From the NCBI GenBank assembly GCA_002163245.1, contig MAAL01000158.1, positions 1 through 44,212 on the forward strand: a stretch of 44,212 nucleotides of DNA. The letters are read 5' to 3'. Below the pieces are notes generated by a model. The model had not been told where the DNA came from. It saw only the letters and a list, made by a program, of their open reading frames with translations, and did no database searches. This DNA is from Gammaproteobacteria bacterium 42_54_T18. GTDB lineage: Bacteria; Pseudomonadota; Gammaproteobacteria; Pseudomonadales; Ketobacteraceae. Of this stretch, positions 22,340-28,072 are shown one piece after another. Numbering within the stretch: position 1 is the stretch's first letter; every line of letters begins with the position of its first letter. Made by a program: the position numbers and the translations under genes.

Positions 22340-22377
22340 GGGGTTTGAAGTCCAATGGAGCGCAAACAAGTATGAAG
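22340..22377 (+). repeat. Left terminal inverted repeat of the Tn3-family element
   Basis: Starts GGGGTTTGAAGTCCAATGGA, identical over these 20 bases to the right end, then GCGCAAAC versus ACGAAAAC. The inner 15 bases are more diverged than in the right repeat. The TATAA duplication immediately precedes it. Confidence 0.88.
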
Positions 22378-22550
22378 TTAAATGTGTATTTAGGTGATAA
22401 ACGCTTGCTTAGGCCTGGCCAGCACAGAGGTTTTGGGTTTAGCCAAGTATTTACACACATGCATTTTTAGTGTGTATTCGAAATCCCATTAAGCCCCCCA
22501 ACAATCCTATTAGCGAACAATTCTCCATTCGGCCCAGTTTGTTTTCATCG

Positions 22551-22625
22551 TGTCTACCAATTTATAAGTTTGTGGACACAATAATCTGTTCAATATACAG
22601 TGTCTATCAATTGATTTAGGAGACA
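22551..22625. promoter_or_regulatory. res-like resolution site
   Basis: Two dyads bounded by TGTC and GACA lie just before tnpR: a 28-bp one at 22551-22578 with central TTATAA, and a 25-bp one at 22601-22625. The Tn3 res site has subsites I and III of exactly these lengths; a 34-bp subsite II was not recognised between them. Position next to tnpR supports the call. Confidence 0.6.
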
Positions 22626-22635
22626 ATTTTAAACC

Positions 22636-23196
22636 ATGCGCCTCTTTGGATATGCTCGTGTATCAACAAGCCAGCAATCATTCGACATTCAAGTTAAGGC
22701 TCTCAAAGAAGCTGGGGCCAAAACCAGTCGGATTTATACGGACACCGTCAGGGGTAGCCACACGGATCGTGATGGGCTGAGTTTATTGCGACTCAAGGTA
22801 GAGGAAAGTGATGTTGTTTTGGTTAAGAAGCTGGATCGACTTGGTCGTGATACCGCCGATATGATCCAGTTGATTAAAGAGTTTGATAGTATCGGTGTTG
22901 CCATTCGTTTTCTGGATGATGGTATCAGCACAGAGGGTGCTATGGGAAAAATGGTAGTAACCATTCTGTCCGCAGTAGCGCAGGCTGAACGTCAGCGAAT
23001 CATAGAACGAACTAATGAAGGTTGAGCGGAGGCCAAAGCGAAAGGAGTTAAATTTGGTCGAAAGCGCACTATTGACCGAAAGCGCGTGCAGGAACTTCAC
23101 GAGGAAGGAGTTGGGGCTACAGACATTGCCAGGCAGATGGGCATTGGAAGGTCTACAGTGCATAAATTATTAAAGCAACCCTTTGAAGACCGTTAA
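22636..23196 (+). pseudogene. tnpR: Serine resolvase (TnpR) with internal stop codon
   Basis: Tn3-type serine recombinase of 186 residues if read through. The catalytic domain starts [19 protein letters not shown] with the nucleophile Ser, followed by [12 protein letters not shown] and [13 protein letters not shown]. At 23023-23025 there is a TGA where homologues have Arg (ERTNEGRAEAKAKG), consistent with a CGA to TGA transition. The same frame continues [20 protein letters not shown] and the DNA-binding helix-turn-helix [20 protein letters not shown] to a stop at 23196. The first 129 residues could be made but would lack DNA binding. AGGAG lies 13 nt before the start, close to the res-like site. 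Confidence 0.88.
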
Positions 23197-23262
23197 CTGC
23201 AATACTTGAAACAAGGGGTTACGGTGGCAACAACTCCTTATCTCGCCAGTCCAAGCACATCA

Positions 23263-23294
23263 AAAGCTCTCGTTGTGTAGAGCTTTCTGTTTGT
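23263..23294 (+). terminator. Probable terminator after tnpR
   Basis: AAAGCTCT (23263-23270) pairs with AGAGCTTT (23279-23286) with an 8-nt loop, followed by CTGTTTGT. The U-tract is imperfect. It lies between tnpR and the cargo LysR gene. Confidence 0.4.
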
Positions 23295-23380
23295 ATCAAA
23301 GCTACTGCCAGGGTGTTAGACTTCTTGAGCATTCTTTAGGGTCGCCTATTGGCCAACATTCATTGAGAGTATTGTAATTG

Positions 23381-25631: not shown

Positions 25632-25705
25632 GACATAACAAGTATTAAGTAAAGAAATCGCCCAATCATGATTGAAAAGATCATTAATGAGAATAGGAGA
25701 AAGGT

Positions 25706-27100
25706 ATGAACGCACAACTCAAAGCACCCACTACCGAACAAGACATTAAGAACGTTGTTGCCAATCAACGTCAGTATTTTCGTACTAAAGCCACGCTGCC
25801 CGTGAGCTTTCGCCTGGAACAACTCAAAAAGCTAGCGGCATTGATTAAACACCACGAAGATGATCTTTATGAGGCTATTGATAAAGATTTCGGTAAGTCT
25901 AAGCATCACACTCAAATGACAGAATTACTCCCGCTTTATCACGAGCTTCGAGAAGCGATCAAACATTTAGAGAAGTGGGTTAAGCCAAGAAAGGTGGCGA
26001 CCAACTTACTTAACCAACCGGGTAGAAGTTTTATCGTTCCCGAACCTCTGGGGGTTACGCTGGTGATAGGTGCGTGGAACTTTCCGTACAATCTTTCGTT
26101 GATTCCTGTGGTAGGGTCCATGGTGGCGGGTAACACCACGATATTGAAACCAAGTGAGCTGCCAGTGGAAACTAGCAAAATAATGGCCAAGCTGATCAAC
26201 GAAAATTTTGACCCTGGGTATCTTAGGGTTGTTGAAGGTGCAATTCCTGAGACAACGGCTTTGCTTAATCAACGCTACGACAAAATTTTCTTCACAGGCA
26301 GTCCGCAGGTAGGGCGAATCGTCAATGAGGCTGCCGCACCACACCTAACTAACGTTACCCTCGAATTGGGCGGCAAAAACCCGGCAATTTTCACTCAAGA
26401 CGCTTCCTTAGATGTTGGCGTTAAACGCTTGATTTGGGCTAAATTTGTCAATTCTGGGCAGCTTTGCCTAGCGCCAGACTATGTACTTGTGCATAAAAGT
26501 ATTAAGCAAAAAGTACTTGATCAAATGGTTCACGAAATCAAGAAACATGACTATTCGGTAGAAAACAAGAACTTTGTCAGAATCATTGATAAACGCAACT
26601 TCGATAGAGTTGCTTCACTCATTGATCCAAGCAAAGTTTTTTATGGCGGTGGAACAAATCGTGAAGAAAGAGTGATTCAACCGACGATCTTGCACAACGT
26701 GACTCTGGATGATGCCGTTATGCAAGATGAGATTTTTGGGCCAATTATAGCGGTGTTGGAGTACGAAACTCTTGATGAGGCTTTCGACATTGTTCAGCAA
26801 CAAGAAAAGCCTTTGGCAGCCTATTTGTTTTCGAATGATCGCGACATCAAAAATCGCTTCCTTAGTGAAATTCCCTTTGGTAGTGGCGCTATCAATGACG
26901 CAGTAATGCAGAACAGCAATTCTAATCTTCCTTTTGGCGGAGTAGGGAATAGTGGTATGGGCAGCTATCACGGCAAGTATAGCTTTGAGTGTTTTTCGCA
27001 CTTCAAATCGATACTGGAGAAAGCCAATTTTATCGAATCTAATTTGAAATACTACGGTCACTCAGACAAGCAGATAAAATGGATTCGAGCATTGGGCTAG
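25706..27100 (+). CDS. Class 3 aldehyde dehydrogenase (fatty/coniferyl aldehyde type)
   Basis: 464 residues of the ALDH3 family, converting aldehydes to acids with NAD(P). Visible are GAWNFPYNLSLIPVVGSM, the catalytic Glu220 in TLELGGKNP and the nucleophile Cys254 in FVNSGQLCLAPDY. The C-terminal NSNLPFGGVGNSGMGSYHGK is typical of the class. AGGAGAAAGG precedes the start. It follows the iron ADH and precedes two small tautomerase-like genes with short gaps, so an alcohol would be taken to the acid before the tautomerase step. Intact. Confidence 0.9.
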   Translation: MNAQLKAPTTEQDIKNVVANQRQYFRTKATLPVSFRLEQLKKLAALIKHHEDDLYEAIDKDFGKSKHHTQMTELLPLYHELREAIKHLEKWVKPRKVATNLLNQPGRSFIVPEPLGVTLVIGAWNFPYNLSLIPVVGSMVAGNTTILKPSELPVETSKIMAKLINENFDPGYLRVVEGAIPETTALLNQRYDKIFFTGSPQVGRIVNEAAAPHLTNVTLELGGKNPAIFTQDASLDVGVKRLIWAKFVNSGQLCLAPDYVLVHKSIKQKVLDQMVHEIKKHDYSVENKNFVRIIDKRNFDRVASLIDPSKVFYGGGTNREERVIQPTILHNVTLDDAVMQDEIFGPIIAVLEYETLDEAFDIVQQQEKPLAAYLFSNDRDIKNRFLSEIPFGSGAINDAVMQNSNSNLPFGGVGNSGMGSYHGKYSFECFSHFKSILEKANFIESNLKYYGHSDKQIKWIRALG

Positions 27101-27123
27101 GGTACTAAAACGAGGAACGCAAT

Positions 27124-27450
27124 ATGAGTAAATTTATCGCCACCATCCAGCAAGGTCATAATGCAGATGACCTTCGGGAGCATTTAGCAAAAGGTCTACA
27201 AAATATAGCCATAGAATCGTTTGGGAAAGAGGCTGCTAACTCAGAAGTGAAGTGGAAGGTCATCCCAAAAAGCTTCGCCTGGACAGCTGGAAAACCCAGT
27301 CGCACCAGTGCATTAATTTGTGTTGTGCCCGAAGACCTGGAATTTGAAACTCGAGCTAAATTTATGGCTCAGATTAATGACTATTGGGTAGGGCAAACCG
27401 GCGCTAACCCTAACGAATTATTGATATTCACATTGAATAATGGCTATTGA
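27124..27450 (+). CDS. Tautomerase-like small protein without Pro-1
   Basis: 108 residues. The pattern (beta strand, helix, strand with W.VIPKSFAWTAGKPSRT, strand and helix ending NPNELLIFTLNNGY) resembles one tautomerase/MIF unit. The residue after Met is Ser, whereas catalytic members need Pro. It may therefore be a non-catalytic partner of the next protein or carry out a different role. 23 nt after the ALDH stop, with ACGAGGAACGC as ribosome-binding region, so clearly in the cargo operon. Family assignment is from pattern only. Confidence 0.6.
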   Translation: MSKFIATIQQGHNADDLREHLAKGLQNIAIESFGKEAANSEVKWKVIPKSFAWTAGKPSRTSALICVVPEDLEFETRAKFMAQINDYWVGQTGANPNELLIFTLNNGY

Positions 27451-27489
27451 GCAATAGATTAAAACCGAGAATCATTTTGGAGAATAAGT

Positions 27490-27900
27490 ATGCCAATTTA
27501 TTTATCAACCGTAAAAGAAGGTCGTACTACTGAAGCTCAACGGGAAAAAGTTGCTCAATGTATTACGACGGTTCATGTTGATATCACGAAAGCGCCTGTG
27601 CAATTTGTGAATACCTTTTTTAGCGAACACGTTGACCAGGAAGCAGGCTTCAGTGCGCTTCCACCCGGTAACGTCATTTTTATCAATGGCAACATCCGTG
27701 CCGGGCGGAGTGAACTTGCCAAACAAGAAATGGCTGAACGCATTACCCAGGGGGTTATTGATGCACTGGGTTGCACTGCTGAAGAAATAGGGATCAAATT
27801 CAATTCTGCTCCCGCGTCACATGGTATGGAAGGGGGACAAATTCTTCCCGAACCCGGCAGTCCTGAAGAAAAAATATGGGAGGAGATGGGCGTTGCTTAG
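27490..27900 (+). CDS. cis-CaaD-like tautomerase-superfamily enzyme
   Basis: 136 residues beginning MPIYLSTVKEGRT, giving Pro-1 after Met removal. Counting from that Pro, His28, Arg69, Arg72 and Glu113 correspond to His28, Arg70, Arg73 and Glu114 of cis-3-chloroacrylate dehalogenase. The surrounding sequence also matches (IFINGNIRAGRS; GGQILPEPG). The position of cis-CaaD Tyr103 is Lys here (GIKFNSAPA). Such enzymes hydrate acetylene or haloacrylate acids, or tautomerise. With ADH and ALDH upstream, a route alcohol to aldehyde to unsaturated acid to hydrated product is plausible, as in 1,3-dichloropropene catabolism. GGAGAATA precedes the start. Substrate is inference. Confidence 0.8.
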   Translation: MPIYLSTVKEGRTTEAQREKVAQCITTVHVDITKAPVQFVNTFFSEHVDQEAGFSALPPGNVIFINGNIRAGRSELAKQEMAERITQGVIDALGCTAEEIGIKFNSAPASHGMEGGQILPEPGSPEEKIWEEMGVA

Positions 27901-28034
27901 TGTCACATAAGGGGTATCTCTACAAAAGGCTTTTTCAAGTTGCGCGATCATGAATACACTCCATCACAGCATTTGTGGTTGCGCATTTTTCAATGGCGAA
28001 GCCAAGCGTCAATTCAACGAGCCTGTAAAAATTC

Positions 28035-28072
28035 CTTAGCGTACGTTTTCGTTCCATTGGACTTCAAACCCC
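28035..28072 (-). repeat. Right terminal inverted repeat of the Tn3-family element
   Basis: On the minus strand it starts GGGGTTTGAAGTCCAATGGA, continues ACGAAAAC and finishes GCTAAG, 38 bp in all. The sequence follows the Tn3 end almost column by column. TATAA (28073-28077) follows on the plus strand. Confidence 0.9.

Follow-up and report, generated by a model that had tools for sequence, protein, structure and literature searches.

A transposase-less Tn3-family element with an alcohol, aldehyde and tautomerase gene set in a gammaproteobacterial draft genome

The element, its ends and its empty site

The stretch of DNA analyzed here (the window) comprises 44,212 nucleotides of Gammaproteobacteria bacterium 42_54_T18 (contig MAAL01000158.1, hereafter C121), whose draft genome holds 6.66 Mb in 199 contigs and is 96.4% complete. 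Window positions 22340-28072 are occupied by a non-autonomous Tn3-family transposon of 5733 bp, in which a res region, tnpR and five cargo genes for a LysR-family regulator, an iron-containing alcohol dehydrogenase (ADH), an aldehyde dehydrogenase (ALDH), a small protein denoted P108 and a tautomerase denoted Taut follow each other in this order on the plus strand (Table 1). The original prediction, made from the letters of the window, was a catabolic Tn3-family transposon without a transposase gene at this place. Its coordinates proved exact, an empty site exists on contig C165 of the same genome, and there is no tnpA (DDE_Tnp_Tn3) inside the element or elsewhere on contig C121, so that the element does not qualify as autonomous. 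We consider it very probable that it is a non-autonomous Tn3-family transposon with catabolic genes, presumably mobilized by a transposase supplied in trans.

The outermost 20 bp are the same at both ends in inverted orientation, both ends begin with GGGG, and TATAA abuts each of them on the outside, all as predicted. This pair is the longest among the 20 inverted pairs listed for the window (arms 22329-22367 and 28045-28083, 39 nt, 85% complementary), and a simple equal-base estimate puts the chance expectation at about 0.0009 perfect 20-bp inverted pairs per 44 kb. A full 38-bp Tn3 end is present on the right side, which starts with GGGG and agrees at 38 of 38 positions with the ends of a transposon on plasmid pASCH21, but the left side agrees at only 29 of 38.

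A search with 15.2 kb around the element shows both flanks directly joined on C165, with the element absent; such an empty monooxygenase site had been suggested as something to look for. When window positions 22010-22339 and 28078-28300 are joined they match C165 with 290/302 identities and no gap at the join, the single gap lying ~200 bp away. The C165 paralogue lacks exactly the element plus one TATAA: the motif occurs twice at the element and once in the empty site, as expected of a 5-bp target duplication. On the minus strand the flanks before and after the insertion read ...AGVSGIGSAITLDKNKMGSY and STLESAEDLGGTWRTNKY..., and the intact paralogue reads AGVSGIGSAITLDKNKMGSYSILESAEDLGGTWRTNKY across the site. 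The C165 gene is an uninterrupted flavin monooxygenase of 490 codons, and the rejoined fragments in the window are not of different families but represent one gene, ~96% identical to the C165 copy. Nor were the cargo genes seen colinear with these flanks in a form without the repeats; where they recur, in the sister genome described below, they lie between other flanks.

The split host frame does close once the element and one TATAA are removed, but the frame was already a composite in which a monooxygenase 5' fragment continues into an enoyl-CoA hydratase 3' fragment, and because of this no complete gene was broken by the insertion. Judged from the alignments, the target is a duplicated 5' fragment of the C165 monooxygenase gene. 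The enoyl-CoA hydratase part (window 22022-22120) has a 91% copy 11 kb away at window 32948-33046. Pieces of window 16471-18525 and 22110-28173 are 93-97% copies of one C165 stretch in the monooxygenase region (78435-82825), and genes for a LysR regulator and an MMPL transporter now separate them in the window.

Table 1 Features of the element and its target, in window coordinates; aa, amino acids.
Feature	Position	Strand	Remark
Target monooxygenase 5' fragment, part after insertion	22110..22339	-	96% to C165:82461-82692
TATAA, left target-duplication copy	22335..22339	.	single copy in C165 empty site
Left inverted repeat	22340..22377	+	vs right end: outer 28 bp 26/28, whole 38 bp 29/38
Left terminal stretch	22340..22440	+	common to two solitary ends, G001:C178 and G000:C127
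res site I-like sequence	22550..22579	+	imperfect inverted repeat
Further res sub-site (site III position, adjoins tnpR)	22600..22625	+	putative, assigned by eye
tnpR (serine resolvase) frame	22636..23196	+	internal TGA at 23023-23025; open part 129 aa
LysR-family regulator	23378..24283	+	301 aa
Iron-containing alcohol dehydrogenase	24438..25631	+	397 aa
Aldehyde dehydrogenase	25706..27100	+	464 aa; best NCBIfam model MdlD (benzaldehyde dehydrogenase), 436 bits, below the cut-off of 550
P108	27124..27450	+	108 aa; predicted tautomerase fold, no N-terminal proline
Taut, Tautomerase_3 protein	27490..27900	+	136 aa
Right inverted repeat	28035..28072	-	38 bp; same as both pASCH21 transposon ends
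TATAA, right target-duplication copy	28073..28077	.	adjoins right end; one copy in C165 empty site
Target monooxygenase 5' fragment, part before insertion	28078..28173	-	97% to C165:82686-82762, plus a further 28-bp piece

res, tnpR and complete relatives

The tnpR and res functions expected of a Tn3 element are both represented, but the tnpR frame is stopped by its TGA before the C-terminal (DNA-binding) part. The two pieces of tnpR, searched apart, are 81-83% and 75-86% identical to TnpR of three relatives, and the res region aligns to the res of all three complete elements with a score that 0/500 shuffles reach in each case. A relic of the 3' part of tnpR, 84% identical to the window tnpR region, lies on another contig of the host genome (G000:C149:4251-4443).

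The search for the ends in other genomes, also put forward with the original prediction, showed that other organisms have the same ends around complete transposons that encode TnpA and TnpR. Both ends of the 4717-bp pASCH21 transposon from Aeromonas sobria (L126:3828-8544), which is annotated with tnpA and tnpR, are those identical to the right end of the window element, and the ends of a complete element on contig C76 of genome G035 (L040:91-7382) agree with it at 35-36 of 38 positions (2 and 3 differences). The two transposons are like the window element in their ends, res and tnpR and unlike it in having their own tnpA and other cargo, namely toxin-antitoxin type genes on pASCH21 and genes for an AAA ATPase and a subtilase in the G035 element. 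Degradation genes are likewise the cargo of catabolic Tn3-family transposons such as Tn4651, but these have their own transposase and a different gene set.

At least 5000 plasmid records contain a match to the G035 TnpA; among the 5000 counted, 4906 are 60-80% identical, most of these from enterobacteria. We infer from these similarities that the element belongs to the Tn3 subgroup proper; this naming is aided by what PMC7157771 says on divergent tnpA and tnpR with res in between. The 28-bp end with at most 3 mismatches is present in 7/96 genomes, the host genome included. One 1244-bp candidate with two such ends (genome G073) was rejected: its flanks are unlike, and what it contains is part of a tnpA alongside other small reading frames. 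When the whole element was compared with plasmids in a distant mode, the 20 matches listed cover the tnpR/res part and one of them also the right end; among the at least 5000 matching records counted, none covers 80% of the element.

Missing transposase and probable route of movement

A precedent for a transposase-less element of this type is TIME-RES, which according to PMC4133298 lacks tnpA while carrying tnpR and res. As described there, its 40-bp ends mismatch at 8 positions, it is flanked by a 5-bp duplication, and 60 bp adjoining one end are common to other TIMEs; it was caught transposing at 7.8e-5. The window element resembles TIME-RES, as far as that text goes, in lacking tnpA, in its mismatched Tn3-type ends, 5-bp duplication, tnpR and res, and in an end-adjacent stretch shared with other elements. 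It differs in end sequence, since the TIME ends resemble the Tn5044 subgroup, in its stopped tnpR and five catabolic genes, and in size (5733 bp compared to 262-3892 bp for TIMEs). By analogy, the window element can be regarded as being of the TIME-RES kind with cargo added, and mobilization in trans is what the missing tnpA and the TIME precedent would imply.

In such a scheme, replicative transposition would have been carried out by a TnpA of the Tn3 subgroup that bound both ends of the element and was encoded by a plasmid or a since-lost element. Resolution of the cointegrates at res would have needed a TnpR that was either still intact or came from another source, given that the present tnpR frame ends ahead of the C-terminal part. 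As for the helper itself, the suggested search of the host genome for a tnpA with matching ends did not find one. The four PF01526 matches of that genome lie at three loci on three other contigs and are 22-29% identical to the G035 TnpA; we rejected them as helpers on this ground. An inverted-repeat scan around them gave one pair on C74, with unlike ends, and short pairs only on C165 and C38. When 57 genomes were searched with the G035 TnpA, a match at 1e-50 was found in 16, and the best match in the host genome was 24% identical. A further copy of the element with a different duplication, likewise suggested as a check, was not encountered in the 38 genomes searched. The matching helper gene is presumably absent from the assembly, lost, or plasmid-borne.

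The left end bears on how the element came to lack tnpA. Its inner tail recurs at two solitary ends within the genus, on contig C178 of genome G001 (81% over 101 bp, element positions 1-101) and on contig C127 of the host genome (79-85% over ~60-97 bp, with 85% over ~60 bp), as found in one search of 14 genomes and another of 5; a pattern match on G002:C130 was dropped for want of a GGGG end. With its inner bases found again at two other loci, the short left end is not the product of a deletion at this site alone, and comparison of these copies suggests that it was probably already of the short kind at the time of insertion. This favors a TIME-RES-like element with cargo over a complete transposon that lost tnpA after landing. 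In the stretches examined, which comprise only 1.8 kb on the C178 side, no convincing partner was found for the C127 and C178 ends. Counting these two, four solitary Tn3-type ends have no convincing partner in the stretches examined: G000:C165:106198, G000:C127:4695, G001:C178:1788 and G001:C292:1853.

The best surviving alternative is a deletion in place, by which a Tn3 transposon that was complete and had tnpA when it inserted would afterward have lost that gene. The res-tnpR part and the right end are those of complete transposons, and tnpR has decayed, so that decay after insertion is plausible. In the complete relatives, however, tnpA runs into the terminal repeat (repeat from 91 and tnpA end at 124 in L040; repeat from 3828 and tnpA end at 3861 in L126), and no tnpA end is readable within the left end of the window element. 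This missing remnant and the recurrence of the left-end inner bases at two other loci make deletion in place unlikely. It is considerably less likely still that the left end is dead or borrowed and that the element reached its site in a single irregular event such as one-ended transposition. Such an event would fit the 29/38 left end and the partnerless related ends on C127 and C178, but the exact 5-bp duplication and the exact GGGG termination on both sides are as expected from two-ended transposition, and TIME-RES moves despite its mismatches. Chance repeats or an assembly join, conceivable in a draft genome, can be dismissed given the low chance expectation, the coincidence of the ends with known transposon ends and the C165 paralogue that lacks exactly the element and one TATAA.

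Several points weigh against a non-autonomous transposon mobilized in trans. The left end does not fit the 38-bp repeat at 9 positions, most of which come after bp 28, and its binding of TnpA may be poor. Neither a helper TnpA nor a second copy was seen in the genomes searched, although in a draft genome the helper could be missing from the assembly. Finally, neither of the two complete relatives examined has matching 5-bp flanks, and they thus offer no independent check of the duplication rule.

Cargo genes, the P108-Taut pair and the sister copy

The closest solved relatives of Taut in the PDB are 5uif, a Tautomerase_3 protein (3.5e-17), Cg10062 and cis-CaaD. Aligned to 5uif, Taut has counterparts of Pro-1, His-28, both arginines (Arg70, Arg73) and Glu-114, with a lysine at the position of Tyr-103 (residues as given in the accessible text of PMC5818174). 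Linker 1 (5uif, Ps01740) is likewise described there as having no Tyr-103. Compared to cis-CaaD, Cg10062 and Linker 1, as they appear in that source, Taut appears to keep the catalytic counterparts except Tyr-103, and its gene adjoins one for a protein of predicted tautomerase fold without Pro1.

That neighbor, P108, has no family match in Pfam or NCBIfam at 1e-3 and reaches 5uif by sequence at an E value of 0.037 only. Its AlphaFold2 model is a double beta-alpha-beta unit (predicted local distance difference test score 85.5, predicted template-modeling score 0.81) for which Foldseek gives 5uif as the best match (1.4e-9) and cis-CaaD entries near 1e-7. On the basis of the model, P108 is predicted to have the tautomerase superfamily fold. 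Neither the window protein nor any row of alignment A3 that shows the start (L118 and L124 begin later) has proline as its second residue. P108 occurs at 99-100% identity in 2/390 genomes of the order, with weaker homologues (26-36%) in 8 more, and has no plasmid match at 1e-3.

When GTDB genomes were scanned with alignment A2 by way of one peptide pattern, 48 stretches matched and 20 loci (L105-L124) were confirmed, in alpha- and gammaproteobacteria and one Myxococcota bin. A P108 homologue gene lies directly upstream of the Taut gene in 20/20 loci (partial in L111), a figure biased by the construction of A2 only from P108-bearing loci and by five loci known beforehand; among the new loci it is 15/15. 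ADH and ALDH matches are both present in 8/20 loci, one being the sister copy of the cargo itself. Six alphaproteobacterial loci (L107, L108, L110, L113, L114, L115) share the gene order ALDH-ADH-P108-Taut, all on one strand; the Taut stretch of L115 holds a stop, and the three neighbor genes scanned at L107, L108 and L110 encode AraC-type regulators. Because the remaining 12 loci have the pair without both dehydrogenases, the P108-Taut pair is not tied to them. The P108 homologues of L116, L118, L119, L122 and L124 have a longer C-terminal tail. No Tn3 end of the present type was found in the 20 tautomerase loci and 6 others scanned (best 10 mismatches in 28).

In the breakdown of 1,3-dichloropropene, an alcohol is oxidized twice and the resulting acid is hydrated by CaaD or cis-CaaD. 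By analogy the cargo set may follow the same logic, with the difference that its ALDH resembles benzaldehyde dehydrogenase. Under control of the LysR-type regulator, an alcohol would be oxidized to the aldehyde by the iron-containing ADH and to the acid by the ALDH, and the acid would then undergo a cis-CaaD-like hydration or isomerization by Taut together with P108. We put this detailed route forward only tentatively. Somewhat more speculative is a two-part enzyme of a cis-CaaD-type Pro1 tautomerase and a Pro1-less partner, closing an undescribed pathway from alcohol through aldehyde and unsaturated acid to a hydrated product and spread by more than one vehicle, including a transposase-less Tn3 element. 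To us a pathway for an aromatic, benzyl-type alcohol is about as doubtful as that two-part enzyme; in it Taut would either take a ring-cleavage product as substrate or do something unrelated. The ALDH does match the MdlD model best, albeit below its cut-off, and tautomerases often serve ring-cleavage pathways, but there is no ring-cleavage gene within the element, and 4-OT-length entries are far weaker PDB matches of Taut than those named above. Among the papers listed in literature searches that covered a minority of subscription journals, none deals with this cargo set or with a double-domain pair of the Pro1/non-Pro1 type.

The sister genome G003 (Gammaproteobacteria bacterium 45_16_T64, scaffold 113) carries 4.6 kb of the cargo at 94% identity between other flanks, just before a Mg-chelatase (comM-type) gene. 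It stems from the BD02T64 sample, an oil-degrading laboratory community according to the accessible text of PMC6851277. The G003 ADH has a 13-bp deletion, and the other four cargo frames align to the window gap-free. The ratio of nonsynonymous to synonymous divergence (dN/dS) between the two copies is 0.086 for LysR, 0.255 for ADH (7 codons skipped), 0.038 for ALDH, 0.021 for P108 and 0.093 for Taut; the cargo genes are under purifying selection between the copies (dN/dS 0.02-0.26). The synonymous divergence ranges from 0.036 (ADH) to 0.45 (ALDH), more than 10-fold between neighboring genes, and this unevenness suggests patchy recombination.

No Tn3 ends of the present type are found at the G003 cargo (best 11 mismatches in 28). 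It is bracketed by a direct repeat of the Mg-chelatase gene start (L039:7759-7938 and 12633-12812 on contig C5; 161/181 identical, 89%), and at 181 bp this repeat is far too long for a Tn3 duplication. The 79 bp between repeat and cargo align to the start of the window res region with a score of 42, reached by 0/3000 random window pieces (maximum 38). Under different settings the piece could also be placed at the inner res site with a score of 34, reached by 0/2000 shuffles, compared to 1119/2000 for the collinear window sequence, so that two placements compete within the window res region. Against the res of the three complete relatives the piece does no better than shuffles (202, 119 and 283 of 500), which argues against a res origin; from its sequence it is at most a possible res remnant.

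The window element is a clear natural example of a Tn3 element that lacks a transposase and carries metabolic rather than resistance genes, and for which the pre-insertion sequence is kept in the same genome. Searches keyed to transposases would overlook such elements. The interest of the window element is raised by its still intact empty site, by a short left end that it shares with other loci, by the sister copy at another site and by the recurrent P108-Taut pair, and the cargo points to a recurrent two-gene tautomerase module.

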